Shown piece by piece: positions 30,183 through 52,618 of a DNA stretch of 64,000 nt. The DNA is from Sanguinoderma infundibulare (taxonomy: Eukaryota; Basidiomycota; Agaricomycetes; Polyporales; Polyporaceae). Made by a program: the position numbers and the translations under genes. Every line of letters begins with the position of its first letter. The first letter of the stretch is position 1. The DNA lies in assembly GCA_032821775.1 (NCBI GenBank), contig JAVLRN010000007.1:868001-932000 (forward strand), in the 5' to 3' direction. Below the pieces are notes generated by a model, which was not told the origin of the DNA, did not search any database, and worked only from the letters and a program-made list of their open reading frames with translations.

Positions 30183-30265
30183 GCTGCCGTGGCATAGTGG
30201 TCTACGCATCTTCATGAGCGCTACCTGCACTCGTGAAGCTCTGGGTTCGATTCCCACCACGGTCC
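30183..30265 (+). other. tRNA-like module in the left arm
   Basis: A box-like TGGCATAGTGG and B box GGGTTCGATTCC are 40-45 nt apart. CCGTGG near the start can pair with CCACGG at the end, and CTTCA/TGAAG frames an oversized anticodon loop, as in an intron-bearing tRNA. Two more copies lie inverted in the right arm. It could be a tRNA gene, a pol III promoter from a tRNA-derived SINE, or a relic. Confidence 0.6.
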
Positions 30266-30419
30266 TGAACCACAATTGTAGCATGTTTTTTTCTAGATGA
30301 ACCGTGCTCAATAGCATGACCGGGGTGTCCGCTCTGCAATACCCTCGGTCGCATGTTTGATTACTAGGGTCCATTTGCACAATTATTAATTTGAGCAACT
30401 CAATAGGTCTTTAATAGTG

Positions 30420-31290: not shown

Positions 31291-31500
31291 CGTACTAATT
31301 CTTCGCTGGACATAAGTAGATACTGGGGTGAGATGTAAGTAGTAGCGCGAGGTGGAACGCAAATAAAATCAATCATCAGTTGCCAGCCATGGTCACATTG
31401 GAAACAGAAGGAGTCCGGAGGTGGTAAAAACGTCCACCCCCCACGTGCAACATTGTAATATAGGTAGCTATGCATGTCAAGTCCGCGATGCTCCTCTGTC

Positions 31501-32698
31501 TCAGCGATCTTCTCCATCCTCTGCCAACCCCATCTCCAATGTACTCCAGATGGTCATGGCTATGTGGGCTCTCGACGTAACGATAACGCCGTATGCTCCC
31601 CAGTGTTCAGGTGCGTAACTGAGGGCTGCAGAACGAGCAGTGCGCATCCGAGTATCGAGCGCTTCCAACTTGGCAACATCAGCGGATAGCTCTGCCTGCT
31701 GCTCCCGAAGATACCGGAGCACATCGTCCCTATGTCTGTCCATGTACCCCTCTTGCGCGAAAGGCTCCAGAGCAACACCGGTGGCCGGAAGTTCCGGATT
31801 CGATATCTCCTTTGGAGATGACATATTACCTAAAAGCGAAAAGCTAGGCCTCCTCGGGTCACTGACATGGTGACAACCTAAAACGCTTAATGATCACATA
31901 CCTAGCATCTATTCCTTGGCTGGGAGCCCCATCCAGAGCTCCGGGGCATACGCTTGCAGTATCTGTTGCGCCGGCATTCTCGTCGAGGTCTTCATCCGTC
32001 CCGTAATCCACCAACATTGATGTCGCGAGCTGAGGGTCGCAGCTGTCTTTGTCACGCAACACGCCAGCCAAGCTATCACACCCGTAATCCACGAATGCGG
32101 ATTGGCGGTCTGTTGTCGAAGCCGGGGGCTCCGAAGGAGAGCCGTCGCCGTCACCCGGGTCGGAGTCTGAGCTGTACATGACCATCGCGGATATGTTGGC
32201 CCACTCCTCACTGTCCATGAACAATACAAATTATAATCCCGCCGTCTCATGAATCAGAACGCATATTTACCTAGTTTCCCCATGCACACAGCCGTCGCCG
32301 TCACCCGGGTCGGAGTCTGAGCTGTACATGACCATCGCGGATATGTTGGCCCACTCCTCACTGTCCATGAACAATACAAATTATAATCCCGCCGGCTCAT
32401 GAATCAGAACGCATATTTACCTAGTTTCGCGACCCGACGACTGGCCATCCGGTATGTTCAGTCTGTCTTCGGTATCTTCGACCACCACAGTGTCCGGGCG
32501 CATGCGGGGGGGTGTGGGCAGTGTCAAACGCACGCGCTTGACAGACACCCGACTTTCTGAGCCTATAGATTAATTCACGTCATAAATCAGTCAGTAACGA
32601 AGCACCGGTGACCACGAACCCTCTGCAGCTGGGCCTTCGTCAACGTCCCCTCGTGGGCGCTTTGAATGGCGTCGTTTACTCCCCATGTACGGATCGAG
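31501..32698 (-). CDS. KDZ-element cargo gene, function unknown
   Basis: Exons read on the minus strand: IRTWGVNDAIQSAHEGTLTK with QLQR (32,698-32,621); RPDTVVVEDTEDRLNIPDGQ (about 32,505-32,430); a duplicated acidic exon with WANISAMVMYSSDSDPGDGD (two copies); SAFVDYGCDSLAGVLRDKDS; and a final exon with MSSPKEISNPELPATGVALE, a helical DVLRYLREQQAELSADVAKL and a stop at 31,501. A splice from ...GIDA to FSLLGNMSSPKE keeps frame. A further exon upstream (ESKFAWSVYQ near 32,790) is likely, so the 5' end is open. No known domain; mostly acidic and disordered, ending in a coiled coil. Confidence 0.45.
32141..32428 (-). repeat. 138-bp tandem exon duplication
   Basis: 32,141-32,278 and 32,291-32,428 differ at about one position and are separated by 12 bp. 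Each carries the MDSEEWANISAMVMYSSDSD exon plus its upstream intron, so the duplication adds an exon to the cargo gene. Confidence 0.9.
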
Positions 32699-32959
32699 CT
32701 AAAATATACGATCAGTACGTCATCGCATTGCTTGAAAGTTCCGAAGTTAACTCACCACTCTGGTAGACCGACCACGCGAACTTCGACTCACACGAGGAAT
32801 GGCAACAGGCAGAACACAGAACAGATATCCTGGTCGGATGTGCCACCGGGACCGGCGTCCGGGAGGCCCCGGACCGTGGCGGACCTGCAGACCACCATGC
32901 TCTGATCGCCAGGCAGTTTGCCTGCACCTCCACCCCATCCCACCACATATCTTGCCATC

Positions 32960-35900
32960 ATGTCCACTCGCGGAACCACTCAGAAAAAACAACCGCCTCC
33001 TGCGCCGACTCCGGAAGAGATTCAAGACATCCGGAGGCTCGCAAGTGAATTGCACTTCGCATGGGCCGCAAAATCCTGCCTTGATTCCCCTCACCGCCAG
33101 AGCTGGGACACTCGCTTTCGCCACACTCTCGCTACTCTTACCCAGCGGCTTGCAAGGTCGCGCTTCAGTCGCCTTCCGAGGCTCGCGATGGGCGCCATCT
33201 GGGAGAGTAACTCCGCCCATCGAGAACGTCGCGCGCTCATTAACATTGAGTCCATCGCACCCGTCGATGTCAGCCACCCATCCCTCAGCCCCCCCCCGGG
33301 TCTTCCCAAGCTTCCCTTCACACCGGATGATCAAGGAGACGTTGGGCTTCTCCGCGAGGAGGAGCTACCAAACAGGTGGTGGGTTTATGAGGCCTCAGGT
33401 GCGCACCTCGTCTTTTCTGGTGATAGAAAAAACACTCACGCCCGCGCATACCCCTCATCAGCCCCACCTGTGACATCGGGCGCGCCGCAGATGAAGCAAG
33501 CCGCCGCACAGCCATCTACGGGCCATCAAGAGCCTATCCAGCGGCCCAATCAGTCTGCAACGTCCCTTGATCAACGTATGGTCCCCGGAGGTATGAAGAA
33601 GGCCAACAGTACGGGGAGCCCATACGTTTTGCTTCCCGTTCGAGTCCCTCCCAGGCCGACCTCGCAGTCGCCTGCTAGCGCTGTGGCGGAGCCCAGTGCA
33701 GCTCCAGCCACCTCCATCGGAGGGAACTCCACGCCTCGTCGCACTCGATCTGCAAGTCGCGCTCGATCTGCAAGTCGTGTGCGAGGTGCAAGTAGTGCGC
33801 CCCGCGCAGCCGTGGCCGTCGACGTCGACATCGCGCCTCTCGCTCCCCCGTCTCCGAAGGCTACCTCATCCAAGGCCAAGGGCAAGGGGAAGGCCGTTGC
33901 GGCAGTGGCTCTCAAGGCTCCGGAGCCATCGATCGCGCAGACGAAGGGAAAGGTGACAGAGCGCACTCAGCCTCAGTCGTTCCCGGACAAGTACGTCTTG
34001 CCGGAGGAGAAAGTGCGCTGGGAATGGCTTCTGCATGTACGTCATGTGCTATCATCATATATACAACTGCATCTTATCATGTTCCTCCAGCCTGCTTCAT
34101 GTAAAAGCTGCTCCACCGCATCTCGCCCGTGTTATCTCTGTCCTCTCGTGTCATCCAGCTGCCATGCGTGCCACAAGGGCAGGACTAAGTGCTCCCTTAC
34201 TGTCCATGCTTCTCACCCAAGCACCGCGGCCTACCTCGCCTGGGTCTACTGGCGCACGCTCAACGATCCCCAGCAATACCCTTCACCTCCCTTCTCCCCC
34301 GGGGAAGAGGCTCCTTCCCAGTATCCTCCGCAGTGGTTCTCCGACCAGTACAATCTATATGATGCAAACATGCGCAAAAAGGGTCCCCCTCCACCTCGTG
34401 ATCCCCCCTCCCCTCGTGCTGGGACTGCTCTGGCCTCATTTCCAATTGGGGGAGCCCACTCGCACTCGCCCATGCTGTCTGTTGGTCCTTCCGCCATTGT
34501 ATCATCTCCTCGCCCCATGAATGTTCCGAGTTCCCTGCCCCCGACCCTCTCTTCTGCCGCGCCCCCTCGAATCACGTCCGAGGTCGACATGGATGTTGAT
34601 ATGGCAGATGATACTTTCGCTATGGAGCTCACCGTCGACGTCGATCGCATCTCACATGCGTTGGATATCGAACAACCGGAGGTCTCCATGCAAGATGCTC
34701 CGAACGACCTTGTCGAAGAGAGCGGGTCTCATGGGCTGCCGGATACGGACCGTCATCTGCAAGCTTCCGGCTCTGAAGTTCCAATTCATTGCGGATCTCA
34801 GCTCGACGACGACGGGCCCTTGATGAATGAGGCTCCGGTGGCCCACTCCCCGTCTCGGTCCCGCAGCCTGAGGAAGGACGATCGCCCAGTAAGGTACGTC
34901 AACGCTAGCACCATGCCATCGGAGTTCGTGCGCGCTGATACCGCGCGTGTACCCCCTGAAGAACTGGACTCCGGCTCGGAGCGTGGGGAGGCTCTCCTCC
35001 CGCAACAGGTTCCCCCATTGTCAGATATGTTACTCGAGACCTTTAATCTGATTATATGCCTTCGTCCTCTTTGTTTTCACATGTACAACCTGTCAACGTC
35101 GTACGTGTATCTTCCGGGCACGCTGCAGCTGCATTCTACTTCCTCCCGCTTGCCCTTGTGTGTTTGCTTGGTGCCTTTTGTCGTCCGAGTTCCAGTTGCA
35201 GGGCAATTGATTTATTCACACTGTTCTAGGAACATGGTGGGATCTCCCTTGGCTTACAGGGGACGCAGATCGTACCCGTTGCGCTCGCCCCGAAGCCACG
35301 CCGGAGACCCTTGAAGAGTTTCTGCGTCTTCGCGGACTTCCCCTTGAGGCGCCGGAGGGTCCCTCAAGCAACCCCTTGAGTCGTCCCTCCACTCCACCCT
35401 CCAAAGCGTTCTATCTCGGATTGGAGACACTCAAGTTGGTGGATGACGCGCGTGAAGGTTTTGCAGACATCGAGGGTCTCCCGGAGGCCTCTCAACGTGT
35501 TTCAAGCCGCCTCCGGAAGCTCGAGGACGGGGTTCGCACAGCTCGGCGCAATGCGATGCTCACCGCAAACGAAACGACCAGCTTTCAAGCGTGTTATGAG
35601 CAGTTGTTCTTCCAGATGCAAGACACCGCAAAGGACCTTGCCGAGACCGCCGCGACGGTCGCCACCGTCTCCGACAACGTCGGGCGACTCGCCAAGGCGT
35701 TCCGTCACGTCCCTACGATCCCTATTCACTGGCCTGCGCTCCTCGAAATGCTGGAGGTGCTGCAGCGGCTCCACAGCTTGTACCATGAGATGTGGCGTCG
35801 ATACAACTCTTTGCGCGAGGACATCCGACCCATCCGACCCGACATCGCCCGCGTCGACCAGCTGTTGTTCAAGATGGGACTTCAGTTCACCGAGCTCTCA

Positions 35901-36629
35901 GTCGACGCCAAGTACATGTTGGCGCCCGAGCTTGAGTCGCTGAAGGCCAAGCTCATAGAGGAGGTCAGGGGTGTTGGCCGCTCCGCCGCAACATCGCTTC
36001 AATGCATGGCCGACGCGCTTGCCGATGGTGGTACCGCCTCCCAAGAGGCTTCGGATCGGCTCCGGCAGGTGCTCAAGACAACACTTACTTCGTTCCAGCA
36101 TGCGGCCGGACGACTCAACGCGCATATCTCGCAAACTATGCACTCGGCATTCGAGGAGATTCCTGGTTGGATCCGGGACCTCGAGGGGCGCGTACGGGTC
36201 CTCGAGAGCCTCCATTCATCACCTCCCCATGATGCCGACATCCTTCCAACCAGCCCGCGGGCGTCGACATCAGCCCTCCCAATGCCCCCGCTCGGCGGCA
36301 CTTCATCCTTTTCGATTCCCGCCCGGAATCTGGCCCCGAGTGCCTCTCGAACCTCTGAAGTCGTGGAGGCCCTGCGCAGCCTCACGGAGCGTGTGGCGGC
36401 CCTCGAGACTTCACGAACAGATCAGTTCAATGCAAGCGTGGACGCACGGATTCGGGAGTTTTTGGGGCAGTTCAATCTCGGAGACCGTGCGCTTCGCCTG
36501 CTCGGAGATCCGGTGACGCAGTCCCATCTTGCATGGGGCTCCGGAACCCCAACTGGTGGGAAGGTGGTGCCAGACACCTGCAGCGGGACTGGATTTTTGT
36601 TTGGCATGTCTCATTCCTCAGACGCGTAG
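32960..36629 (+). CDS. KDZ-element cargo gene: Cys-cluster and coiled-coil protein, function unknown
   Basis: Starts MSTRGTTQKKQPPPAPTPEE at 32,960. Exon 1 runs to YVLPEEKVRWEWLLH at a GTACGT donor (about 34,034). Exon 2 opens with a Cys cluster, CKSCSTASRPCYLCPL then SCHACHKGRTKC (probably zinc-binding), followed by an acidic, Pro-rich region with DMDVDMADD. A third exon from about 35,231 reads TWWDLPWLTGDADRTRCARP and continues into a long helical region (GRLAKAFRHVPTIP, LEMLEVLQRLHSLYHEMWRR) ending at 36,629. The second intron junction is one or two bases uncertain. Predicted length about 1,100 residues. No named family; proteins of this layout recur in large basidiomycete transposons, so a role in transposition or DNA binding is a guess. 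Confidence 0.55.
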
Positions 36630-36732
36630 CTACCATGCATGTCCTATATCATCCAATCAAATCTGTTCTGCTCACACTCAACCTCAGAGATACACGTCGA
36701 TGCCATTGCTTTAGAGTCCATACAAAAAAAAC

Positions 36733-39700
36733 CTACGATTTCATCGATGCCGCCCCTCCCTTCTTGGATGCCCTCCGTGCTGCCCTCGGGGCAGGAGCCG
36801 CTGGCTCCGTAGCGGTCACTTTGGCCTCCGCGGCCCTTTGCTTACAGGTGCGGATGACCAGGTCGGAGCTGGCTGACGTCCGGGCCCGCTTGGTGTTCAT
36901 GTCCCGATCTCCAGACTCTGTCGGTGTACCGTCCACCGGAGCTTGCACTCCTCCGGTTGCAGCCACGCCATCTGTTGCAGAGCGGGGAACGCGAGAGGGG
37001 CCAGCATTTGTGGACCGCGTACGCTTGCGCGGGCCATTTCCCCGCTCCTTGCGACCTCCCGATGAGTTCCGCTCGTCGACGTTCTCCGGACTGTCCTCCA
37101 CGTCTCCCGGGTCCTTCTCTTGCCCATCCTCGAGATCCGGAGGCGCTCCGGTTGGCGAGGTATGCGTCCCCGTGGACGGTGGCCCCGTTTGCCCTGCGCT
37201 CGGGGCGGCGTCATTCGCCGGAGATGGGGCGGTGATCGGGACACCGTTCCCTTTCCCGGCGGCGGCTCGTTTCACCGGACGAGGCACCACAGCTCCCTGT
37301 TTCTTGCACACAGTGAGCAGTTCGCCCACGTTGGTAAAGCTCAGGTGAGTGCCCTGAAGGTAGTGGGGGATCTCGTCGGGGAGCAGTTCGCCGTCTTCAA
37401 TGAAGTGCGATACGTGGATATCTCGCAGGGCCATGCCCATGGCCAGACAGTACCGCTGACAGTCCTCGGTAGTCGATCCAGGCGGGATACCATCGGCGAG
37501 CCACTTCATGAGCTTTGCAGCCCCGTCCGGATCCTCATGAACGTCGACGGGCATGTGCGGGGTGGAAGTCGACCAGCTTGCCCATCGGAGCCCGTCAAGA
37601 GGCGGAACTACAACCGGAAGCTCAAGCTGTAGGGCACCATCGATTAGCACTCTATCAGCGGGCCGCGGGACATGGCCTACCTTGCCGCGGAGCCTGTCGA
37701 GCATGGCAAGATACTCTGCAAGGTTGCACAAACCTTGCAAGAACGCGAACCGGGCTGGCCCGCTGGCTCCGACGGAGGATGGGGAGAGATGCTTCGGGGT
37801 GTGAGCCACGTCGGTGTCCGAGATGGTTGTCGCCTTCGCCTTCCCTTTATTCGCGCGGGCGGCGTGCTTCGCAGAACGGCCAGCCAACGGCTCTTCGGCT
37901 TCATCATTGGGGAACTCACCACCAGAGCCCTCGTCGTCCATGCCACCAAACAGCTGCTCGAGCGCGTCCTCCTCCTCCTCTTCCTCGTCCTCGAAATCCC
38001 CGTCCAAATCGTCCGGGAATGTGAACTCCTCCCCCTCCTCCGTCTCCGTCTCCGTCTGCGTCCACTCCCCCTCCTCCTCCTCCTCCTCCTCCTCCTCCTC
38101 CTCCTCCTCCTCCTCCTCCTCCTCCTCCTCCTCCTCTTTCTTCTTCCGCCTGCCCTTCTTCTCGCTCGTTCCCTTGCCCTTCCCCTTCCCCTTCTTGGCC
38201 GGCGCCCTCCCCTTTCCGGCCTTCTGCCGGAGACTCTTAAGCGCACGATCAACCGAACCCCGTCTCTTCCGCATGGCTGTCGTTGGCGCGCCGAAAATAG
38301 GACGGCGAGAGGACGAAGACGAAGAGGGTTCACCAGCCATGCCGATAGTGTCCGCATCGGGAGAATCCAGGAAGGTCGGCGGGCGAACGGTGCGGCACTC
38401 ACGCCGAGGACGCCACTCTCCCGGGAGGCCATTATAGATCGCGTCGTGGAAGACGTCTTGGCCGTTTTCATGGGTGAGATACGCTTTGAAACGGAAGCGA
38501 ATCGCTGGTACCTCATCACCCCCTTCGACGGGATGTTCGAGGGCGTGGATGTGTTCGAACAATCCACGGAGGGGTGTGTCGTTCAGCTTTTCAGGGTCTG
38601 CCCACATAAACCCCTCCGGAAGCATTCCGTCGTCGAAGAACTGGTCTGGATAGGTGCGCATGCCAGCCCACGGGGCCCCCTGAACCTGGTGCCCGTTGGC
38701 GAAGCCTATTCACATGTTAATAGGGGTCCTCACCCACATACATACTGAGCACCAACCGTAATGGATCCTCATGTATTGACGAAGGATTGCCTGGCGCTCG
38801 GGGTGCGTGAGCGCTCTGTCCTTCTCCACTGGGTGGTTGAGGGGAAGGATCGGGGTACCGTCGTCGTATAGGGAAAACGCAAAGGGAGCGGGAGGCGCAC
38901 GCCGTGTAGCCTTGACGGCCTCCAGGTTCTCTGTGGGGGCAGACTCGGGGTACAAGACGGTGGAGAAGAAGTTCCAGAACTTCCGGCGGACGTTCACATC
39001 CCACTCGTCTATCTCTCGGAAACGAGGGAAGGTTTTGTCCCTCTCCGCGAACAACTGCGACGAGTCGTAGCTGCAATGATCACACAATTGGGATTCAACC
39101 ACCCGTGTACGCATTGGTAGTACTAAACGCGTGACGTACATGACCGCGTTGATTTGCTTGTTCTCATTTGGGAAAACACCGTACATGAATAAGGGCATCC
39201 CGAATTCCCGCCAGAAGAGCATGGAGATCTTCCGCATCCACGCCCCCGCACGCTTCCGAGCTTGTCTATCAAGACCAGGCATGAGTACAGCAGAACGTAC
39301 AGTAGACATGCATCACGCACTGAGGCTTGTTGGTATCCTTTGGACCTTCCTCATTCCACGTCCTCGCCAGCTCGACCCACTCACGCTGCTCGTCCTCCGG
39401 CATAGCCTCCCAAAGCCTCTTGCACGTCGCGTTCCACGTCGCCAGGTAGTCTTTGTCCTTCTTGCTTTTTTCTGGAGGCATCGCCGCCTTGATGGTATGT
39501 TGATTCCGCCGGCTCCAAACCCGTTCGCCATTGGTCATGCGCCCGGGATTGACAGGCCCCCGTGACGATTTTTTTTTGGCGGTGTTGTTTCCGAACCAAG
39601 TCCCAACTTTCTACAGCGTGCGTTAACAGGGAAGCTGTTGGCCTCCGATAAACAGGCCACATACTTTGCTTAGAAGGCTGACCGCCAACGGGGTCTCCTG

Positions 39701-39844
39701 CTCGCCGCGTTTCTTGATCATCCACTTCGCGATTGCCTCGCGGAACGCCGTCTTGTTTTTGGCACTCGTCCTTCGATACTCTGCGTGACGAGCCTCGAGC
39801 ATGGCTTCGTCCTCCTCGGTGAAATCATCAACGTTGGTGGTCAT
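36733..39844 (-). CDS. KDZ-element cargo gene with long acidic tract, function unknown
   Basis: Starts MTTNVDDFTEEDEAMLEARH at 39,844. Exons then encode a basic helical region, KDKDYLATWNATCKRLWEAM followed by PEDEQREWVELARTWNEE (weakly HMG-box-like), MLFWREFGMPLFMYGVFPNE, RKFWNFFSTVLYPESAP, and PDQFFDDGMLPEGFMWADPE. The last exon (from about 38,680) has Lys/Gly-rich and Glu-rich tracts, ALRDIHVSHFIEDGELLPDE, and a basic Ala-rich end (APAPRAARRASKKGG) at 36,733. Predicted length over 900 residues. The mixture of charged tracts suggests a nuclear nucleic-acid or chromatin-associated protein; nothing in it identifies an activity. Confidence 0.55.
38070..38136. repeat. CTC/TCC trinucleotide microsatellite
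   Basis: About 22 uninterrupted CTC units that encode a poly-Glu tract in the minus-strand cargo gene. Length variation here would change the protein without shifting frame. Confidence 0.95.
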
Positions 39845-40302
39845 GCTGCCGGCAGATGGTGGGGACACAGGGAGCCAAACAGGAAAAACCGGAAGTGAGG
39901 AGAGAGCGGCGACCAGCAGATAGCAACCCGGTAAAGAGCTAGAGGCAAACGCCGCCGCAGGGCCACAGTGAGGAGCACAGTGAGAGAGCGAAGGGGACAT
40001 AGGCTCCAAGTGATTTCTTCTGCGGAGCTCACCGGGCGGAGAGCAAATGGTAGGCACAATTTTCATTCGGCCGCGACCACGAGTCCGCCTGCGGGTTGAG
40101 TACAAGATGACCGACCGGCCGCACGGCAGATGTAACCACAAACCTCCCGGACCGCTCCGTCCGATGAGCGCCAAAGGCTGTGCACGATCGAAACACACCG
40201 GTGCGCCCCCGCTGGTCTCGCTTCTAACCTCCCCGCCGCACCCTCTCTGTTTCCTGCTTCTCTCTGGGTGCCGGGACCGACCTCGCATTGGAATTGTCGA
40301 CG
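39845..40302. promoter_or_regulatory. Divergent promoter region of the KDZ element
   Basis: The 458-bp gap separates the start of the minus-strand acidic cargo gene from the start of the plus-strand dioxygenase. Both ATGs face away from it, so it must carry both promoters. No TATA box stands out. Confidence 0.5.
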
Positions 40303-41618
40303 ATGGACGATGCAGGGCCGTCGGGCCTGCTTCCACCCTTGTTTCAGCGTCGGGCACATGTGGCGCAATACATTCTTGCGCTATTCCATTTCCATCGCAA
40401 CCGGGCGATGTCCGACAAGTCGGTCGGCTGGTCTCGCCCCACACCGCCACCCATATCTTTCGCGCTAATGGAAGAATCCGATGCTATCGCTCGAACGCTG
40501 GCCCGCGCTGCCGAGAATAAATGTGAAGATTTTTGCATACCTTGGAGGGCTTGTTGCTGATTTTATTCAGATGCAGTGACGTGGACGGCGGAGGAATACG
40601 CCATGGCCCTCCCGAAGAAAGCCTTGCTCGGAGAGGAGAGGGAGAACGAGCTGCTGCAACGCTTTCCCCCCTTGATCCCATCTGAACAAGTTATCGGACG
40701 CACAGATTCCCTTCCGGTGGTGCCAGATCCCGCCCTCTTTACCGACAGTAAAGGGAATATTCTAGCGTGGTCCCTGCCCGGAATCATTTCCCGATCGCGT
40801 CAGGTACGGGTACCCTGATATGACAAGAGCTCCGCTTGATTACAAGTCCCGTAGGACATCATTCTTCGGGCCACAGAGTATCTCAAGCCTTGTCTCCAGG
40901 CCAAGAAGATGCCCGAAGATGATGCGCCCACAAAGAACTGGCGGAACTCTGACCGGTTCGTGTCCAAGACGCCCGAGTGGGGTGAAGGGACGTTATTGCT
41001 CTTTCCGGCAGGATTTCAGCAAGGTCATACGGTATGACACGCGACTCCGGTTGATTGTCGCGTGTCTGATCTCTTCTGAAACAGGGTAAACACTTTGAGC
41101 CCATGCCTTTGAAGAACTGTGAGACTGATCAGTGCCGCGAGTGGATGGCCGCTTTGGAAGAGTCTAGCGGCTTGCTCGATGGGATTCTCGCGGTAATGCA
41201 CCCTCGGCTGTACATTGCGGCGCAGGCACTTATTTCCAAAGTCCTCGTTCATGGTGGTCGATCCGGTGCAGCTATGGCTCACTGGCCATCATTGTACAAC
41301 TCCGTCCATCTCCTTGTCAACCGTTCGACTCTGCGTCATCGCGACGTCGGCGCATTGCCCGGTTGGTTGGACATGCTTCTGACATTGGGGGATTATGACC
41401 AGCGAGGGGTACTGGAGCTCCGAACGTTCGGAGTGTGCGTGCCATATGATAGTGGGACGGTATGCATGCTATCATCTCGGGTCGTGCAGCACGGTGTTCC
41501 CACTGTCCCCGGTGACAGGATTTGCTATGCATTCTACATGGTTGCGCATGTTCATGCATGGTTTGATATACCTGATCCGGGCATGGTGCAATTGGATGAT
41601 GTACATCGTATCGCATAG
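40303..41618 (+). CDS. TET/JBP-family 2OG-Fe(II) dioxygenase, KDZ-associated
   Basis: Four exons: 40,303 to about 40,521 (MDDAGPSGLLPPLFQRRAHV); about 40,571-40,803 (WTAEEYAMALPKKALLGEER, PDPALFTDSKGNILAWSLPG); about 40,854-41,029 (IILRATEYLKPCLQAKKMPE); and 41,086-41,618. The last exon holds the double-stranded beta-helix core: NRSTLRHRDVGALPG with the HxD iron ligands (codons at 41,337-41,345), LTLGDYDQRGVLELRTFGV, CVPYDSGTVCMLSSRVVQHG with the distal iron-ligand His (41,490), and GDRICYAFYM with the Arg expected to bind 2-oxoglutarate. This pattern is that of the fungal TET/JBP group, whose studied members oxidise 5-methylcytosine in DNA. All ligand residues are present and the frame is intact. 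An alternative splice after FYM would replace the last 20 or so codons. The KDZ transposase starts 92 bp downstream on the same strand. Confidence 0.8.
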
Positions 41619-41710
41619 AATCTACAGCCGCCCAGATTGTTTGATTACATCCAACGTCGGTGTGCCTCTCCTCAACGCCACCAACCTCTCCACTGACATC
41701 AACATTGGAG

Positions 41711-44700
41711 ATGTCCAGACGTCGGTTTGAGGTAGTGGAGCCATACGAGGAACTTACCGTTCATGTACGCCACTCTTCCCGCCGCGGAGAGCGGGTGATC
41801 ACCAAGAAGGCCCGCCTCGAACTGCCCAGAGTTTTGCAACACGGGGAAGCCTCGTCCGAGCCAGCAGCCCAGCCAGGACAGACTACCGAAGGACAGAGGG
41901 CGGAACCACATGCGCATCCATCGCAACAGGCGATTTGGTTGCCTGAGGTTGGCGATGGCCAGCAACTCGGGTTTGAAGAGATTACCTTCGAACCACAACG
42001 ATGGAAGGGCAAGGTAAGTGGAACACTATGTGCCCCACGCCCGCCTGAACTCAGGCCTATTTCTTAAACGGTATTGTAGTCTCAAAATGACTTCCAGCGC
42101 AAATTCCTGGCAGTCAGGGACGAATATATGCACCGGACGATCTCTCTGGAAGCCCTGCCTTTGGACGGCATTGGAACGTGCGGCCATCCAGCGATATGGC
42201 ACTGTATGACATGTCATGGCAAGCCGACGTTCTGCGCGGTCTGCTGCCATCATCGCCATCTGGACCAGCCTTTGCACCGGGTCGAATACTGGCAGGGTGC
42301 CTACTTTCAAACCGGCTGGCTCCGTCAGCTCGGCATACAGATTCACGCAGGCCATGGTGGTCAACCCTGCCCATACCTAGCAACATATCCCCTTGCTGCC
42401 CACGACCCCCCCCTGAGACGCATGCCGGAGGCTCCGGAGCTCGACGAGGAAGGAGAGCAACTGCCATTCCTTATCGAGGACAACCTTTCCGACGTAGACG
42501 ATGAAGATGGTGACCTGTACTTTGATCCGGATGATGAGACCTCTGCGCATGACACTTCCGACCTACCGTCGTTCGAACATTGCGAGCCACCACTCGGAGC
42601 CACCGTGGCTCAGGCCGCAATGTATAGCGGGGACCGTATGATGGTCGTTGTCGACGCGGACGGCATTCACGAAATATCAGTAACGTTCTGTGCGTGTCCG
42701 AATGCTCCGCGCGAGGACCTGCAGCTTCTGGACCTCGGCTACTATCCCGCGTCCACCATCCGGCCTCGCACAATGTTCTCGCAGAAACTCTTAGACGACT
42801 TTCTTCTGGCCAACAAAGAGTGCAAGACTCCGGCGCGGAACTATTACAACAAATTGCGAAGGACAACCAACCCTGCATTTCCGCATTTGGTACCGGTGGG
42901 TCAACATTGATTAAGGCTTCCGGAGACCGCGAGATTCATACCGGAGCCACAGGATCGATACAAGGAGCTGCTCCGAACGTCCAGACAATGGCGGAATCTC
43001 CGCCTTCGCCGCGATGCGGGATTCGGTCACCGCTCAGACCCCGTGGGCCCCGGAGACCTCGCGGTGCGATGCCCCGTATGTGCGCAACCGGACATCAATC
43101 TACCGGAGGGTTGGGAGAGTGACCCGGAACAGTAAGTAGTTAGGTTCTTAGCGTACAAGCATTTGCTATACACCTCCGAGCGCACTAGGTTCAAGTACAT
43201 GCGGTCGGTGGTTCTTGATGGCAACTTCAGCGCGCAACACCGTCACATGCGACGTCTGGAGGACGACGTCCCACTGGCGGATGGACATGGCTTCATGGTA
43301 GAAGACGCCCCATACAAGGAACATCTGAAGACAGCAGCCGAGTTTGCCGAGGTGCGGTATACGACGTAAGGCTCCGGAGGGCATAGCTCACAATAGACAG
43401 TAGAAGATCACATGCAACGACCATCGTGCGGTCCTCAATGCGTCGGTCAGGCGGGCCAAGCTGGAAGCCACTGGTATCGGGGCTGCCGCATGCTCCCGGC
43501 ACAGTTTCTTTGCTCCGCACGCATGTGTGGACTTCCAACTAGGTGAAAGGTAGGTTCGCATCCGAACCCATGGTGGAAGGTGGCCAAACTCACTCCCGTT
43601 CACAAAGACAGAGAAACATGGACTACATTCTGCACTGGATATTCGCCAACCTCAATGGCCTAACATGCGTACTCGTGATCTACGATGTCATGTGCCAATA
43701 CTTCATTCATCTCCTCGACCGGTTCCGTGAAAGCCCCGGCCTGCGAATGCCTCTTGGCTTGAACATCTTGCGGGGCATTGGTCAGTTTCACGTACATGGT
43801 CATGTCCCACGATGCTTTCCACAATTCTCCTGCAACTTCATCTCCGGAGCCGGAGTACAGGATGGGGAAATTCTCGAAACCCTCTGGAATAAAATCAATG
43901 CAATCGCTGACTCCACTTGGGGGATGTCGTCAGCACACCGGAGGGAGGTTATCGACGACACGATGAATGATTCAAACTGGATGAAACTAACGCGAATAAG
44001 TACGCAAATCAACCAAGAAGTCGTGCCGGTCACTGATTACATACAATGACAGCGAGTACGCTCATACGGAAGTGGCGGCAGGCTTGCAAGGAATGGCAGC
44101 CAGTCGTGGATGCGTTCAACAGGTTGTGCGAGGCGAGTGGGCCCACACAATGCGAGGAGTGGAGACAGGAAGCAGTTGCGGCCGATGAGGCTCGAACAGA
44201 AGATCCCAGTGCAATGGACATATATGATGTGACGAAGCAGCCCCGTGAGTCACCCTTGCGTTGTACTCACCGTAGAATACTGACCGGTAAATCAGTACCC
44301 AGCCGGAAGGACAAGGAACTTGCACTCACCCAGGAGGAGACAGGGGCAGACGAGTCAATGGTGGGTGCGGCCTCGTGGATCTCTGCGGGAATCCGTCTGG
44401 AAGAATGGAAGTGAGTGCCTCACTATCCTAGGAGCAGCATAGAACTGACGGCAACGGTTGGGATAGGATTGGGATTGCGTATACTGCGCGCGCCATGATG
44501 GCTACCTCCGGTACCAATGCACGATTGAGCCTGGAGACTCACCGGCAGAAACTCGCCACGGGGATTAAGGCCTTCCACAAAGCGTCAGACAAGCATCTGA
44601 ACATTTCCATCAGCGCAAATGATGTCCCTGTGACGGCTGATGTGACTGAGTTCGGCGAGCAATGGGACGACGAAGAAGTGCGCCAAGCACGGGCAAGGTC

Positions 44701-45396
44701 CGGGGATATCGAAGACTTGCTTCAGCCGGAACATCAGCTGATCGCCCTTCCGTCCACGCTGGGCTACCCCTACCTCAAGCAGCGGGGGCTACTGTCGCTG
44801 GCGGAGACGGAGCGGGAGCTCCGAGAAGGTCAACTCAATGACTGCCTCCAGGGCATCCGGACGGAAATTGGATACAAGTCCCTTATTTATCGGAAGAAAG
44901 TGCGGAAGGCAACCGCGTACCGCAAGAAGCTCCGAAGTTTCGACGAACTCAGGGTGACCGACGAGAGCCTGATGAAGCACGTACGAGTCTACGCCCACGC
45001 CTGCAAATGCTTACAACGTCTATTCGACACGGACCCGGAGAATCGCGAGGATGCGCAGCTCCGGGAAAGGCTGACAGATAGATACAAGGAGATCAAACGC
45101 GAGGACCTGCGCACCAGCACCACGGTCCTCGAGCAGTTTACGCAGGGCCTCCGGGATGTCCACGCCTCTTGGATATGGCAAGTAGAGGACTCCGATGAAA
45201 CTGATGGGCCGGGATGGCTTCACAAGTGTGAGTGAAATGCCTCCGGTGGAGTACGTGTGCGTGCGGACTAACCACTTCTATTTTACGAATAGTCCGTCGC
45301 ATGCTCTGGCTCCGGGCATACTCCAGAAAGTGCCGTTGGGAAGAGGAGATCAAGCTGGTTCCTTTCGAGATGGAAAGTACCGTCCGGTCTTTCTAG
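41711..45396 (+). CDS. KDZ (Kyakuja-Dileera-Zisupton) transposase with CxC2-type zinc cluster
   Basis: About nine exons; exon 1 is 41,711-42,013 and exon 2 begins at 42,080. The N-terminal part has the Cys/His cluster CGHPAIWHCMTCHGKPTFCA followed by VCCHHRHLDQPLHRVEYWQG, then LRQLGIQIHAGHGG (CxC2-like cluster typical of KDZ transposases). Next come FCACPNAPREDLQLLDLGYY, PASTIRPRTMFSQKLLDDFL, DRYKELLRTSRQWRNL, CPVCAQPDINLPEGWE, FKYMRSVVLDGNFSAQHRH, ITCNDHRAVLNAS, ATGIGAAACSRHSFF, LVIYDVMCQYF, QFHVHGH and GAGVQDGEILETLWNKIN. The Asp of LDGNF, the Asp of IYDVMC and a Glu of DGEILE are candidate catalytic acids of the RNase-H fold. It should cut and join the element's ends in the nucleus. Every intron keeps frame. 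A TAG at 45,394-45,396 ends the frame where related proteins usually continue, and a further 50 codons stay open after it. Confidence 0.85.
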
Positions 45397-45677
45397 ACGG
45401 CCTCGGAGCGTTGGAAAACTTGGGCGGAGGCAAGCAAGACTAGGGGGCATCGAGCATTTGCTTTGCGGCAAGTCTCCTTGTGGAAGGGACTCCGTGAGCA
45501 CGCAACGGCGGCATTTGCGGCGGCGCAAGGGAGAGATCAACCATACTAAGCGCCCATAGCTCTTATCTGATTGCCACTGTAATATTTGGATGCCGGTGTC
45601 GTTCTCTTCCATTGTGCCATCAACCGTCGTGCTAGTTATTTGCTGGAGCATCTTCCCGGCCGGGTACAGTCGTGACT

Positions 45678-46413
45678 ATGAACACGACACAACCACCATT
45701 GCAAGCGTCTACCACCCTGTGGGGGTGTCGAGCGGAGATTCTGCTTACGTTGGGACGCATCCGGAAGGCACTGGTAGCCTTTCCTTCCTCTCCGGAGGAG
45801 ATAACGCTGAGGCGATGGAACCATGGAATTGCCCGGGAACTCGTGAGTCTGACTTTGGCCGGGAGGGCATGAGTTTGCTGATGTATCGTGTTGCCAGTGG
45901 AGCACGATACATGCGACAGGAGTCGAGGCCGCCGTGGTGTTCGACGAGAACAAATCGAATCGCGGTTCTCAGTCTGTTCAGCTGCCCGCACCACTGCAAG
46001 CCCTCCTTTCCGGCGTGACGTGGACGGACGGCCGGATGTCGTTTGATATCACGCAGTTAGACCGAGAGTCCTACCTCCGGATGACCGCAGGCCTGGACAA
46101 TGTCGCCGGAGATGTTGAACATGAATGGGGCTTCGCGCAGTGGTGGCTCTGGGATGAACGTGGGGCCCCGAGGGGACGCCCGAGCTGGTGGAGGGATCCC
46201 GAGAAGTTTGTGGTAAGAAATTGTGTTTGAGAGAGACGGGGCGCTAACTCCTGCTTCCAGGCTGCTCCGATCCCGATGTTCGAGCAAGATCTAAATGACT
46301 GGAAAATGGGCATGGAACGTGTGAGCAACGGGATCATGAGGACTATCGACCAAAAGGAACAGTGGATGAACGCACTTACGAGCCAGATGGCCGAACTCGG
46401 AGAGGACAAGTAG
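45678..46413 (+). CDS. Small KDZ-element cargo gene, function unknown
   Basis: Three exons splice cleanly: 45,678-45,842 (MNTTQPPLQASTTLWGCRAE to RWNHGIAREL), about 45,900-46,212 (WSTIHATGVEAAVVFDENKS, SFDITQLDRESYLRMTAGLD, WWLWDERGAPRGRPSWW) and about 46,261-46,413 (PIPMFEQDLNDWKMGMERVS to MAELGEDK). Protein of about 210 residues, Trp-rich in the middle with an amphipathic C-terminal helix. No family recognised. It follows the transposase on the same strand and may be co-expressed with it. Confidence 0.55.
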
Positions 46414-46499
46414 AGGTTTCGGAGTCGAAATGGGCATATGGGATAACCATAGAATAAGTCCATCAGATGTGTTTGTAATTTTGCAGAGACTCCGGAGCT

Positions 46500-46740
46500 T
46501 GAAGAAACTGTTGCGAAGGTGTTGCCAGGACTGCAGCGCGGCCGGACGGCGGATGTGTGCATGTATGGCACGCGGCCGGGCACTCTGGGATAGGATGTGC
46601 CCACTCGGGAGGAAATGTCAACTAACATCGATCCATGCTCATGCCCGCTACCCGGCCAAGCGATATTCATGGTTGTACATACCACCATGCTCTCGAGGCG
46701 TGTTTACCCATTTAATGATATGATTGCAACCGTGGGGGCG
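46500..46740 (+). repeat. Internal fragment of the terminal arm
   Basis: Contains GTGCCCACTCGGGAGGAAAT, GTCAACTAACATCGATCCATG, CTCATGCCCGCTACCC, AGCGATATTCATGGTTGTAC and CATTTAATGATATG, matching the block just upstream of the tRNA-like module in both arms, in left-arm orientation. The cargo at 47.0-49.3 kb therefore sits between two arm-derived sequences. Confidence 0.75.
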
Positions 46741-47038
46741 CGTACGTCCTTGCCGAATGCGCGCGCACGTATTGTGCGTTGCGCTGGGATTTGGTTTCTT
46801 TTATTTTCGGCATCAGCTCGTGTTTTGGATTCAGTTTTGTTCCGTACGGAACCCTCGCTGTTCGTCTTTCAGCGGGGGGGATGCAGACTTCACTCAGTGT
46901 TTCTTTCGACTTAATTGACGCGGGTTGAATCTCACTGCAAGACGGGGTTCGACTGGCTACGCAATTCGACAAGAAAAACGTTCGGTCCACGACCTTTTAC
47001 CTCGCGCATCCTTTGCGCGAGTCTTCCCGCGACGCTCC

Positions 47039-48401
47039 CTACTCCATCTCGACATCGTCCTCGCCCTCTGCGTCCTCGTCACCCCACTCGCCCTCCTCTT
47101 CGTCCTCCTCCTTGACCGTAGGCGCGTTCGGCCCCTCGCCGGCGCACCAGTACTTGCCGGTCACCATGGACCGGACCACTGTGCAACCTTTTGAGTGGTC
47201 AGTCAGGCGGGGAGAACGGACATTTACTTACAGGCGTACTCCGCGATGGACAACGCGTCCAACGCGGCCTCCAGCCGGTCCTTGGCGGTGCGCAAGCGGT
47301 CGGCCACACCGACGGCGTAGCCAGGGTTGGTGTGCGCGAGCGACTGCGCAATGGAATGGCTGTGGAGCTCCCGGGCGGTCCGGAACTCGTCGCTCGCGCG
47401 GTCGAACTCCTTGCGAGCAGCGGCGTAGCGTTGTGTCCGGGTGTACATCGAGTACATGGCGGTGAGGTCGTAGATTGCGCGGGGGTCGTACAACCGGTCA
47501 TTTTCGAACGCACGAAGGCCGCTGAGGAATTCGTGGAAGAGGGGGTCCGCGTCGGCGTCGGTGGGAAGGCGCCGCACGACGGACATGAAGTTGGCGGCGA
47601 CGGAGACGACTTGGTGGTGGTGGGGGCCGAGCCGGCCGTTCGCGCGGATGGTGCCAAGCACGTCGTCGACGAGCCTGCGCAGGAGGGCAGTGGCGACGGA
47701 GTCTACGTTGGCGTCGGTGAGCGCGGGCATGGTGGGCGGTGGTGCGGGGGATGGTGTGTGTGCGAGGATGGGCGGTGGGCAAACTGACAAGCTATCGTTC
47801 GGCCCCTCGCCGGCGCACCAGTACTTGCCGGTCACCATGGACCGGACCACTGTGCAACCTTTTTAGTGGTCAGTCAGACGGGAAGAACGGACGTTTACTT
47901 ACAGGCGTACTCCGCGATGGACAACGCGTCCAATGCGGCCTCCAGCCGGTCCTTGGCGGTGCGCAAGCGGCCGGCGACGCCGACGGCATAGCCAGGGTTG
48001 GTGTGCGTGAGCGACTGCGCGATGGATTGGCTGTGGAGCTCCTGGGCGGTCCGGAACTCGTCGCTCGCGCGGTCGAACTCCTTGCGAGCGGCGGCGTAGC
48101 GTTGTGTCCGGGTGTACGTCGAGTACATGGCGGTGAGGTCGTAGATTGCATGGGGGTCGTACAACCGGTCGTTTTCGAATGCACGAAGGCCGCCAAGGAA
48201 TTCGTGGAAGAGGGGGTCCGCGTCGGCATCGGCGGGAAGGCCCCGCACGACGGACATGAAGTTGGCGGTGACGGCGACGACCTGGTGGTGGTGGGGGCCG
48301 AGCCGGCCATTCGCGCGGATGGTGCCAAGCACATCATCGACAAGCCTGCGCAGGAAGGCGGTGGCGACGGAGTCTACGTCGGCGTCGGTGAGCGCGGGCA
48401 T
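47039..48401 (-). CDS. Tandemly duplicated cargo gene, possibly read as a two-domain fusion; function unknown
   Basis: Two copies of a helical domain start MPALTDADVDSVATAFLRRL (48,401) and MPALTDANVDSVATALLRRL (47,730), 671 bp apart and almost identical through LHSQSIAQSLTHTNPGYAVG and LEAALDALSIAEYAC, where a GTAAGT donor follows. The spliced second exon reads CTVVRSMVTGKYWCAGEGPN. In the downstream copy it ends in an acidic tail (EEGEWGDEDAEGEDDVEME) at 47,039. In the upstream copy it runs in frame through SLSVCPPPILAHTPSPAPPP straight into the ATG of the downstream copy. The pair may therefore encode one protein with two domains, or two separate proteins. No family recognised. Confidence 0.6.
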
Positions 48402-48629
48402 GGTGGGCGGTGGTGCGAGGGATGGTGTGTGTGCGAGGATGAGCGGTGGGCAAACCGACAAGCTATTTTGTTCACGGGCTACCTACAACACGCAGGGTCT
48501 AACTGCAACCTCGCGCCTTCGCTTCCGACAGGGTCCAAACCTAGCGTCGAACTCGTCCCTTTTTGGCAATCATCATCCTTCTTACCTGCGTCCTCAATCT
48601 TCCTCAACGACTTCGCCGAGGCCTTCTTT

Positions 48630-49267
48630 TTAAAGATAGTAGTCCTCGCGGTCGGTCACTTGGAAGTTCGTCGCGCTGAACGCGCGCGCCGTTTCGATTT
48701 CGGCAGCTGCAGTTTGGGCCACCAGTTCGTTCACGTCTGCTGCAAATCCGGGGTTCGGAGGATCGAGCCGCGAGACCAGGTCCCGTAATTCGATGGCGTT
48801 CGCTCGGTCCCGACGAACTCGCACAAGGCGATCACGAGTGCTTTCGATCAGGATGAGGTCCTGCGCCTGCCCTACGTAGCAGCGCATGGTCCGGGCCACC
48901 TCGAAAGCCGGTGGAGTGAGTTCCACGATGTCGCGCAATCACGTGAACAACGCCTCGACACCGATGGGAGTGCTTCGAAAGCACCCCAGGACCCCGCGTT
49001 CGCAGCCAGGTACATCTTCCGGTGTGGTTCAGTAGCTGTCAATCAACCTAGGCGCTGCGGGCGTACCAAGTCTTCGACGATGGTCTTTACCTCATGTTCC
49101 AACACTGGCCGTGCGTCGCCGGACGCGATTCTGTTCCCCAGCCCGTCCAGCCGTCGTTGGACTTGGTTTTCGAGCGCACTGTTCAGGCCGAATGAAGTCC
49201 GACGGAGCTCCTGGGCGCCCGCGAACGAGTCCTGGAAGGGAGGCAGAACTTGAAGAACCAGCGGCAT
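48630..49267 (-). pseudogene. Diverged third paralog of the duplicated cargo domain, probably broken
   Basis: Starts MPLVLQVLPPFQDSFAGAQE at 49,267. The 3' part reads LRDIVELTPPAFEVARTMRC, RVRRDRANAIELRDLVSR, DPPNPGFAADVNELVAQTAA and ends QVTDREDYYL at 48,630. The segment from NPGFAADV onward lines up with NPGYAVGVADRLRTAKDRLE of the neighbouring duplicated gene. A TGA lies directly before LRDIVEL in the same frame, where Trp is plausible. Without RNA evidence it could also be an intron-containing gene. Confidence 0.45.
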
Positions 49268-49919
49268 GATGAGCGTTACGGAATAATTGGGCGCTCGTGT
49301 GGTTCTGACTTCTTCCTTTAAGCTTCTCGGAATGTTCTCCTCTCGCGGCGTCCATTACGACACCAGCTCCTTTGGTATCCACTCAGGTTGGGCCTCGTGT
49401 TCAAGCCCTAGGCCCTATTCTTCCTCGAAGGCTCCCATGCCCCTCCTCAACTTCGCCCGAACCGCTTTTGGACGCGTTCGAGTGGGTCGCACGACCGCGT
49501 GACCGTGTTAGCCGATCAAAACCTTCGTCACCGGAGATCACTTTCGAATTCCTTCCCGGATTACACGGAGCTGTGCTATTCGTACACGATGACGATCCTT
49601 ACGTCATTCCTCGTCGGAACCGGCACCATACTCGTATTCGTCGGTCTTCAGGGCGTCACCGATGCTCATGTTACTCTCGCGTCGGCTTCCCCGGACACGC
49701 TCGTAGCGCTGTTGCACGTTCCGGTAGTGGTTCAATTTGACTTCCGGGTTTCTTCGACGATGTGGTCAAGGCGCGCGCTGCACGACGGCACGGGGACTGG
49801 CACGTGCGAAGCGGCAGGGTCCAGCGTGTGTGCGCGCACGAGGGCGACTGTTTGCACGTTCACCCGTCATTTCTGGAGCCCACCGCGCGAATATAAATGT
49901 ATTACATGTCAACTGCGTG
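49268..49919. other. Non-coding region inside the right arm
   Basis: No supported gene. It separates the cargo genes from the inverted terminal arm. Confidence 0.5.
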
Positions 49920-49939
49920 TCGAGAGGAATATGGAATGT

Positions 49940-50600
49940 GTATCACGAACTACTGGACTGCAACAAATGTGTCCGGAAGCATAAAATGTTAGTCAGAGCC
50001 GAAGGACAACACAGAAACAAGTCACACAGTCTAGGTGCGCACATACCTGTAATACAACGTTGCATCCCGGGCGGGTAACGTTTGTGGGTACGGTCGGTAC
50101 ACGGCCGGACGCAGAGCGCAGCCACGAATGCCATCCGACCGGTCCCCACCCCGGCGAGGGATCACGAACCGATGTACTGCAACAAATGTGTCCGGAAGAA
50201 TAAAACGTTAGTCGGAGCCGAAGGACAACACAGAAACAAGTCACACAGTCTAGGTGCGCACATACCTGTAATACAACGTTGCATCCCGGGCGGGTGACGT
50301 TTGTGGGTACGGTCGGTACACGGCCGGATGCAGAGCGCAGCCACGAATGCCATCCGACCGGTCCCCACCCCAGCGAGGGATCACGAACCGGTGTACTGCA
50401 ACAAATGTGTCTGGAAGAATAAAACGTTAGTCGGAGCCGAAGGACAACACAGAAACAAGTCACACAGTCTAGGTGCGCACATACCTGTAATACAACGTTG
50501 CATCCCGGGCGGGTGACGTTGGCGAGTACAACACGCGCACAGCCGGTCGCAGTGTGCCACCACGAATGGCGTCCGGCCGGTCACCGCTCCGGTGAGCGCA
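49940..50600 (-). repeat. 219-bp tandem array, right arm
   Basis: Three units with an exact 219-bp period (repeated blocks start at 49,943, 50,162 and 50,381), inverted relative to the four-unit array in the left arm. Units here are more alike than those in the left arm. Confidence 0.9.
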
Positions 50601-50698
50601 ATGGCCCTCTTAAAAATGTTTTGAATTGTTGAAGTTAATAGTCATGCAAACAGACGCAGCACAGTTATGTGGGGAAAAAAGACCTGTTGCTCGTGCAT

Positions 50699-50783
50699 CG
50701 ACCGTGCCGGGAATTGAACCCAGGGCTTGACGAGTGCTGGTAGCGCTCATGAAGACGCGTAGACCACTACGCCACAGTACCTT
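50699..50783 (-). other. tRNA-like module 1 in the right arm
   Basis: On the minus strand it has TGTGGCGTAGTGGTCTACGCG, near-identical to the A-box region of the left-arm module, the long loop with GAGCGCTACC, and B box GGGTTCAATTCC. Confidence 0.6.
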
Positions 50784-51042
50784 GTACCAGTACTGCTACC
50801 AAACGCCTCTAGTACTCGCCTCGATGGCCATAATCTTTACATCATTCCGTGGGCTCCGGTCGGGTGGCATCTTGGATTATTGCTGTTCCGGGCTGGCAGT
50901 ACACTGTGGCAGGGCCGGAAGGTAGTGGCAGAATGAACAGAATACTACTTGTGCAAATGGACCCTAGTAATTGGGTGAACACCCCGGTCGTGCTATTGCG
51001 CACCGTTCATCTGAAAAAAAAAACTTGTTACAACTGTGGTCT

Positions 51043-51127
51043 AGGACCGTGGTGGGAATCAAACCCAGGGCTTCACGAGCAGCGTAGCGCTCAAGAAGAC
51101 GCGCAGACCACTACGCCACGGGAGCTT
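51043..51127 (-). other. tRNA-like module 2 in the right arm
   Basis: Minus strand CCGTGGCGTAGTGGTCTGCG, GAGCGCTACG loop and B box GGGTTTGATTCC. Followed downstream, as in the left arm, by an oligo-T stretch, GATGAAC.GTGC, GACCGGGGTGT and TAC TAGGGTCCATTTGCACAA. Confidence 0.65.
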
Positions 51128-52323
51128 GCACCAGTATCACTATCAAATCCCTATTGACTCACGCACATCATTAAATGTGTAAATGCACTTGCATAACCGG
51201 GTGGCATGTACGACAATAAATATTGCTCAGAACAGGTGACAGGCACGAGCATGGATATGAATTGGGCAAGAAAACATTTAATGTTAGTGGGCATGGGCTC
51301 CGGAGTGGGCAGATTGAGTCCCAGACAGGCCCCGACGTGGGATGCTACATGCGACTGGGGTTGGATAGTTACCTTAGAGAATACATCACGCACCGGGCGG
51401 TGAGCAGGTGCGGGTGTTGATGCCGTACGGCCGTGGTGAACCGGTCGGGGGGAATGCCATGCGGCCAGCCACCACAGAGGGAATGCCTCAGGTATGGCGG
51501 ACTGAGAAGAACGATGCCTGTACACTGTCGCGGGGCTGGATGGTAGCTGCAGAACGAACAAAACTCCCGCCGGATGATGTCCATAGTCATATGTTCGAGG
51601 GGCCGGATGGTACACGCACTGACCGATGGCGACCGGCCGGACATCAGATGACGACTCCAGAAGACAAGCACACATTGGTCGGACAGTAGGTGTCAAAGGG
51701 CCGGGATACATTTGTAGGTATGTGCGCTGACCGGCCGGGTGGCACCAGGTTTAACCGGTGTGCATAGGTGCCGAATTGACATGATGGGTGGCATGTACCC
51801 ACCATGTGCTGACTGCGGAAGAAACGATGGAAAAACTGGAATATGTGTAAGGGAGGGCGAGCAGCGGCCGTACGATAGTACCGGCGACCATGATGCCCCG
51901 GCCGGATGGTAGCCACAGCTACCACGGGTTCGCGCGCGGATGGTGGCAGCAGCTACCATGCTGAACCGGCCGGTCGGCAGCAGCAGCTACTATCACAGCC
52001 CGGCCGGACGGCATTAGTAGGCACCATCCGCCACCGGCCGGCGATCATCTATGGTTTACACGTTAATAGCACCCCCGGTCATTCACACAGGGAAGTGGAA
52101 TCAATGAGTACACCATGACCTGTATGCAGAAATCCAATCTAAAAGTAAACACGGACGGTAGACAGCCACCGTTGGATTTTGAAGCCCACTGGCCGCATGG
52201 CAGAATAGAGGACGAAATTGACAGCGGCCGGGCAGCACTTGCGGCAAAATCACAGGCCCCGGCCGGCGGCAGCTCGACAGCAATTATGGCATTTTCTCCC
52301 CTCCGGCTACCTTACAATTGTGG

Positions 52324-52618
52324 TGATTTTAGTGGAATGGTCTGGATGAGTTGGACACGGCGCCGCAGTCAGATGAGGAATCGGAGGATGGTAGCCGGGA
52401 GAGTCCTCGGACGATGAGGACGATCTCGGGGTGGAGGATGGGGAGGACGGGGATGGTGGGGGTGACTACGAGTATGCTCGCGCCGGCTATGCACCCATGT
52501 AAACACTACATACACTTGTCTCAATCGCATACTATGATTTCGGACGGGGATAGCGAGAACTTTATCCTATTACTAACTATCTATATACAGGGCTCAGAAG
52601 TAAACCTCAGGGCATGCG
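52324..52618. other. Spacer with an acidic reading frame
   Basis: After a possible acceptor at about 52,398, the plus strand reads SSDDEDDLGVEDGEDGDGGG and ends in a stop at 52,501. It may be the C-terminal exon of a captured gene; nothing upstream confirms it. Confidence 0.3.

Follow-up and report, generated by a model that had tools for sequence, protein, structure and literature searches.

TET+ Kyakuja elements were described by Kojima 2025 from the Agaricomycetes, including the Polyporales, and the available text of that study gives them CA..TG ends without terminal inverted repeats, and target site duplications of 7 bp (PMC12730594). CcTET of Coprinopsis cinerea, a TET/JBP dioxygenase of solved structure (PDB 7vpn, 7w5p, 8jkk), is stated in the available text of two papers to oxidize 5-methylcytosine (5mC) (PMC11040006, PMC12730594). 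Here, we analyzed a stretch of 64,000 nucleotides from Sanguinoderma infundibulare (contig JAVLRN010000007.1, positions 868,001 to 932,000; hereafter the window), in which a TET/JBP dioxygenase gene and a KDZ transposase gene lie side by side. They probably belong to a complete 23.5-kb TET+ Kyakuja (KDZ) transposon that is likely to be cut and pasted into 7-bp sites, and its dioxygenase is predicted from sequence to oxidize 5mC.

The window family has in common with Kyakuja-1_LB and Kyakuja-2_LB, as the available text describes them, the KDZ and TET/JBP genes, the CA..TG ends and the 7-bp duplications, and like the TET+ Kyakuja it has no long terminal inverted repeat (PMC12730594). It differs from that description in an imperfect terminal match of 9 of 11 positions, in long subterminal inverted repeats and in an Ala at the position of CcTET Gly331. 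Further open frames are also present, in a comparison that takes the published Kyakuja by their description only (PMC12730594). Because the features tested agree with the published signature, we filed the window element as a TET+ Kyakuja, placed by its gene pair, ends and duplications and not by a transposase tree. It is a previously described kind of element, and the window family is an additional member; the element itself is far larger than the earlier note had it.

Limits of the Element and Its Genomic Copies

The features are collected in Table 1. An earlier note on this DNA had taken the element to be positions 40303-45396. The comparison of copies gives 28826-52344 instead, and the span marked earlier is the core only. 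The similarity of the six other copies to the window reached the edge of every 9.5-kb core stretch compared. In a first round of probes, the left limit fell at 22-31.6 kb and the right limit at 49.3-56 kb; in two copies these ranges were then narrowed to 28.0-29.9 kb and 51.9-52.5 kb. Comparison of the flanks then gave the right limit of 52344 in 6/6 copies and the left limit of 28826 in 5/6, the sixth copy being seen later. The termini are CA..TG, and the terminal match is just 11 bp and imperfect, with agreement at 9/11 positions between CACACAATTCC and CAGACCATTCC, the reverse complement of the right terminus.

Table 1. Positions in the window of the transposon, its ends and its genes.
Feature	Position	Strand	Remarks
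Target site duplication GATGAGT	left 28819..28825, right 52345..52351	unstranded	perfect, 7 bp
Complete transposon	28826..52344	+	23,519 bp; match among copies breaks off at both points
Left terminus CACACAATTCC	28826..28836	+	
Left subterminal repeat zone	29795..31293		inverted relative to right zone 49942-51519, ~69-79% identity
Two overlapping long open frames	32906..36629	+	802 and 472 aa; no Pfam family above cut-off
Divergent gene	36733..39844	-	960 aa, five exons
TET/JBP dioxygenase	40303..41618	+	387 aa, four exons, open frame; rebuilt by hand from splice signals
KDZ transposase, CxC2 cluster included	41711..45396	+	ten exons, 1054 aa to in-frame stop; gene model likewise built by hand
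In-frame TAG in transposase	45394..45396	+	window copy only; 0/6 other copies
Remaining transposase frame	45397..45549	+	50 codons and TAA (45547-45549); conserved in related elements
Small third gene	45853..46230	+	open frame; downstream of transposase
Tandem duplication of 671 bp	47125..48466	-	with open frame (212 and 195 aa)
Right subterminal repeat zone	49942..51519		unit ~219 bp
Right terminus GGAATGGTCTG	52334..52344	+	

In the 48.9-Mb assembly, the exact left end and the exact right end were each found seven times (0 mismatches), always paired and 22.5-24.3 kb apart. The count of near-identical copies that the note had proposed is therefore seven, the window copy included, with both ends shared to the base; that the other six are whole is judged from their 9.5-kb core stretches, from one probe of 500 bp at about 32 kb, and from the ends themselves and their spacing in each pair. 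All seven copies are flanked by perfect 7-bp target duplications, every one of them different (GATGAGT, TATACAT, TGATTCG, CGAGTCC, GGAGAAT, ATTGTAA and GGGTTTC). The right subterminal zone is apparently one unit shorter in two copies, as judged by probe positions, and the number of 671-bp tandem units also varies between copies.

A KDZ profile search and tblastn showed 95-100% protein identity between the six other copies and the window in many single-exon matches. Over the aligned core (39512-46740, ~7.2 kb), pairwise identity among the seven copies was 97.5-98.8%, and divergence outside CpG was 0.13-0.57%. A moderate divergence of ~2% among the copies was set aside as a measure of age, because most of it is CpG transition, and raw identity makes the copies look older than they are. 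We also rejected a single-copy element, which was suggested when the 12-kb core, searched as DNA, gave only diverged relatives (64-78% identity). That reading was wrong: words that are very common are passed over in this DNA search, and none of the six near-identical copies was listed. The seven copies, their own target duplications and the low divergence outside CpG indicate that the family was probably recently mobile.

Four more pairs of ends, with 2-3 mismatches in the ends, are spaced 4.1-5.1 kb. Their duplications are perfect 7-bp ones in three pairs and agree at 6/7 positions in the fourth, and in one pair the first 920 bp match the left end of the 23.5-kb element at 80% identity. These pairs appear to be shorter members of a related family. 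For an extra right end on C6, no left end was found within 3 mismatches.

Transposase and State of the Copies

As the earlier note had read it, the transposase lies 92 bp downstream of the dioxygenase on the same strand (start 41711), without a frameshift and with its cysteine cluster present. All introns between its ten exons are GT..AG. The Pfam profile KDZ scored 148.3 bits (cut-off 26.6, 3.4e-43), and the cysteine cluster matched CxC2 with 80.1 bits (cut-off 27, 1.7e-22) and CxC1 with 30.2 bits (cut-off 26.9). The candidate acidic motifs VVLDGN, VIYDVMC and GEILE, from residues 438, 557 and 620, are present and may be catalytic.

The description as apparently intact did not hold, since the TAG at 45394-45396 deprives the transposase of a conserved C-terminus of about 50 residues. 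In the lost stretch of 50 residues, 42-47 residues align with nine related KDZ loci of the genome at 41-55% identity. We made a census of lesions in the dioxygenase and transposase within the aligned core. The dioxygenase frame is open in 6/7 copies (the window and five others), and the seventh has a stop and a change of HxD to HxN. The transposase carries a shared 14-bp deletion in three of the seven copies, three stops in one and one stop in the window copy, and has no lesion in two. Therefore, the earlier proposal of an active or recently active element can be kept for the family, which is likely to have been recently mobile, and not for the window copy itself, which is not a good autonomous candidate because the stop truncates its transposase.

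The shared 14-bp deletion was considered as a sign that broken copies were mobilized in trans, and this was rejected. The deletion sits between two short direct repeats, and one carrier has two non-CpG variants in common with copies lacking the deletion, so repeated slippage is equally possible.

The family may also be recently dead or dying, the dioxygenase a passenger, the last burst over and the remnants decaying by CpG mutation, which we regard as doubtful. The lesions in five of the seven transposases (the window stop among them), the one dioxygenase that has a stop and lacks an iron ligand, and the CpG decay in 7/7 copies would fit such an end, and so would the loss of the 2-oxoglutarate Arg at two of nine diverged TET+ loci of the genome, paired stretches being counted as one locus. 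However, open frames persist in six copies for the dioxygenase and in two for the transposase, divergence outside CpG is only 0.13-0.57%, and HxD..H..R is kept at 7/9 of the diverged loci. A family that moved recently through its own transposase, which would also have been supplied in trans to copies with a broken one, such as the window copy, is the reading that we prefer.

Dioxygenase and Its Predicted Substrate

The four dioxygenase exons (40303-40522, 40571-40803, 40855-41031 and 41085-41618) encode a protein that scored 50.1 bits against Pfam Tet_JBP (cut-off 34.9, 2.3e-13). All three profiles named in the earlier note as a check, KDZ, CxC2 and Tet_JBP, are thus above their cut-offs, and the residues that it had picked out are kept, namely the iron ligands His295 and Asp297 (HxD) and His346 and the 2-oxoglutarate Arg355.

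Three of the four database matches of the dioxygenase were Ganoderma boninense, Ganoderma sinense and Cerioporus squamosus. The G. boninense protein P0001 (Tet_JBP) is 46% identical across 97% of the window dioxygenase; it differs in having Gly at +5, and Glu instead of Asp at +11, counted from the first iron-ligand His. Among solved structures, the matches were to CcTET only, 8jkk (2.2e-18) and 7vpn (2.5e-18). CcTET has the iron ligands, the 2-oxoglutarate Arg and the equivalent of Asp337 in common with the window dioxygenase, which has Asp at that position, as expected of the AG-type TET of Kyakuja. However, the phmmer score between them is just 69 bits, and Gly331 of CcTET is replaced by Ala in the window and by Ala, Thr or Gly at the other TET+ loci of the genome.

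Asp337 is described as essential to 5mC oxidation by CcTET, which in the same available text is also active on N6-methyladenine (6mA), for which Gly331 gives space (PMC11040006). Because the Asp337 equivalent is kept and the Gly331 equivalent is Ala, 5mC is predicted to be the likelier substrate of the window dioxygenase and 6mA the less likely one. The enzyme might rather make 5-hydroxymethylcytosine or 5-formylcytosine (5hmC/5fC) as a regulatory mark, or act on 6mA, than remove 5mC. Roles besides removal are raised in the available text of Kojima 2025 (PMC12730594), and the activity of CcTET on 6mA points the same way (PMC11040006). We think this unlikely, given the retained Asp337 equivalent and an Ala in place of the Gly331 that, as far as that text describes it, gives 6mA its space (PMC11040006).

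CpG Decay and Probable Methylation

We compared CpG with other positions among the copies and found that CpG columns were far more often variable (342/1209 against 64/6000 over gap-free columns; Fisher, 8e-214). Changes confined to one copy were counted over columns with at least six agreeing copies, their direction being set by the majority; 275 of the 341 were CpG transitions. A single-copy transition was seen at 24% of CpG positions, compared with 0.6-1.8% for C elsewhere, and transitions at A and T amounted to 0.3%. The excess of CpG transitions exists in all seven copies, one of which has about twice as many changes as the others.

This result suggests that the host methylates the resident copies at CpG, which is the simplest reading because of the CpG-transition pattern together with the known chemistry of 5mC. 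Since the pattern points to methylated copies, a substrate for the dioxygenase is likely to exist. C5-methylase-like stretches above cut-off were found in the genome (four rows at three places), and one well-defined catalytic stretch scored 47.6 bits against DNA_methylase. One C5-methylase-like gene (L096, C5:752-754 kb) lies in a CpG-depleted stretch with a GC content of 44% and a CpG observed/expected ratio of 0.27, the lowest among 39 stretches compared.

The pattern could also come not from spontaneous deamination of 5mC but from an active mutator, similar to repeat-induced point mutation (RIP) at CpG, or from error-prone repair following oxidation by TET. The height of the CpG rate, 24% against 0.6-1.8%, would suit such a process, which we nevertheless hold to be improbable. 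The changes are present in all seven copies and even over seven core regions, and there is no increase at C in CpA (14/968), which is the classical context of RIP. Hypermutation at TCG has been reported in Pucciniomycotina, but the available text of Kojima 2025 has Agaricomycotina without detected hypermutation (PMC12730594).

That the repeat is a segmental duplication or an assembly artefact can practically be dismissed; it is long (22.5-24.3 kb) and near-identical where compared, but all seven copies share the same ends to the base, and seven separate perfect 7-bp duplications contradict such an origin.

Does the Dioxygenase Protect Its Carrier?

Iyer et al. 2014 reportedly proposed that transposon-borne TET enzymes free their carriers from methylation. 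In the transposon discussed here, the transposase would cut and paste the element into 7-bp target sites, and the dioxygenase would oxidize 5mC on DNA, that of the element included. With host methylation of the copies at CpG, the dioxygenase would act at or shortly after expression or transposition, and resident copies would not be protected lastingly. The available text of Kojima 2025 describes TET function in these elements as being without experimental validation (PMC12730594).

Several observations weigh against the explanation given here. The stop in the window transposase deletes a conserved C-terminus, and only 2/7 copies are free of lesions in both the dioxygenase and the transposase. 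The Gly331 position is Ala in the window, whereas Kyakuja are reported with Gly or Ser in the available text, as an observation and not as a defining trait (PMC12730594). Among the diverged TET+ loci of the genome, 2/9 have lost the 2-oxoglutarate Arg. A promoter region spared from CpG decay, as a sign of demethylation, was sought between the divergent genes of the core and not found, with 24/91 CpG columns varying there. Finally, the same bias (CpG 22/554, other 4/2815) is seen in a pair of KDZ loci (L007/L008) in which no TET gene was detected, the nearest 30 kb having no Tet_JBP row; it is a single pair and a thin control, and a TET gene near it may have been missed because Tet_JBP rows are found exon by exon.

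In the other six core regions, 25-31% of CpG columns vary, so the decay is even across the core. The CpG bias also exists in three older loci (L002-L004) and in a second TET+ family (L038-L042). We looked for a lower CpG content in families without TET than in TET+ families and did not find it; the pair without TET had a CpG observed/expected ratio of 1.03-1.05, the two young families with TET had 0.96-1.05, and the diverged TET+ loci had 0.64-0.91. Because the promoter is not spared and the pair without TET has the same bias, lasting protection of resident copies is not supported. The idea of self-demethylation, taken up in the earlier note, gains indirect support in that the copies are probably methylated and a substrate is likely, but the uniform CpG decay and the pair without TET argue against lasting protection, and we prefer a short-lived action of the dioxygenase, at expression or transposition.

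Tentatively, and as something possible rather than probable, we suggest that TET serves as a launch enzyme and not as a shield. It would open a brief methylation-free interval around expression and transposition, after which the resident copies would be methylated over their full length and burnt down by CpG mutation. If this is true, TET+ families would persist only where re-launch from unlesioned copies outpaces CpG decay, and they would mobilize broken and shortened relatives in trans. Available in this genome are seven copies whose ends are known, including ones in which the dioxygenase or the transposase is broken, as well as the second TET+ family of five near-identical copies and the KDZ pair without a detectable TET gene. 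This set of copies makes the demethylation hypothesis directly testable.

Other Genes of the Element and Neighboring Loci

Neither the divergent 960-aa gene nor the small third gene matched any Pfam family above cut-off. At each of the nine diverged TET+ loci examined, relatives of the exons of the divergent gene adjoin the dioxygenase. Its database relatives are in Ganoderma leucocontextum and Cerioporus squamosus (three matches), and the predicted structure of one relative was unusable (mean pLDDT 33.6). Relatives of the small third gene, at 27-35% identity, were found in 7/9 of the diverged TET+ loci and not in L035/L036 or L037. In the second TET+ KDZ family (L038-L042), the genes are ordered as in the window element (divergent gene, dioxygenase, transposase, small third gene), and its dioxygenase core is ~48% identical to that of the window.

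We examined the distance between Tet_JBP and KDZ rows in the profile search of the genome, after the KDZ rows had been merged by hand into 55 loci and one weak row omitted. A KDZ row lay within 5 kb of 16 of the 29 Tet_JBP rows and within 30 kb of 26. At five loci (C2, C3, C10, C12 and C18) the Tet_JBP row is ~19 kb from the closest KDZ row, so that these loci may hold a further large TET+ element whose genes are ordered differently.

Stretches resembling tRNA lie within the inverted subterminal repeats (30172-30264, 50700-50792 and 51045-51147). A tRNA was rejected there, as Rfam gave 24 bits against a cut-off of 29 (E 0.53, one stretch listed) and ARAGORN, run with the bacterial code, found none. 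Adjoining the left end of the transposon is a SEC61-like stretch on the minus strand (28071-28709; Plug_translocon 56.6 bits, SecY 32.8 bits). It looks like a gene fragment because none of nine short motifs that we associate with SEC61 was found in a scan of the window. Outside the transposon, a 952-bp stretch at 26712-27663 has an inverted copy, 97% identical, at 53572-52621 on the right flank.

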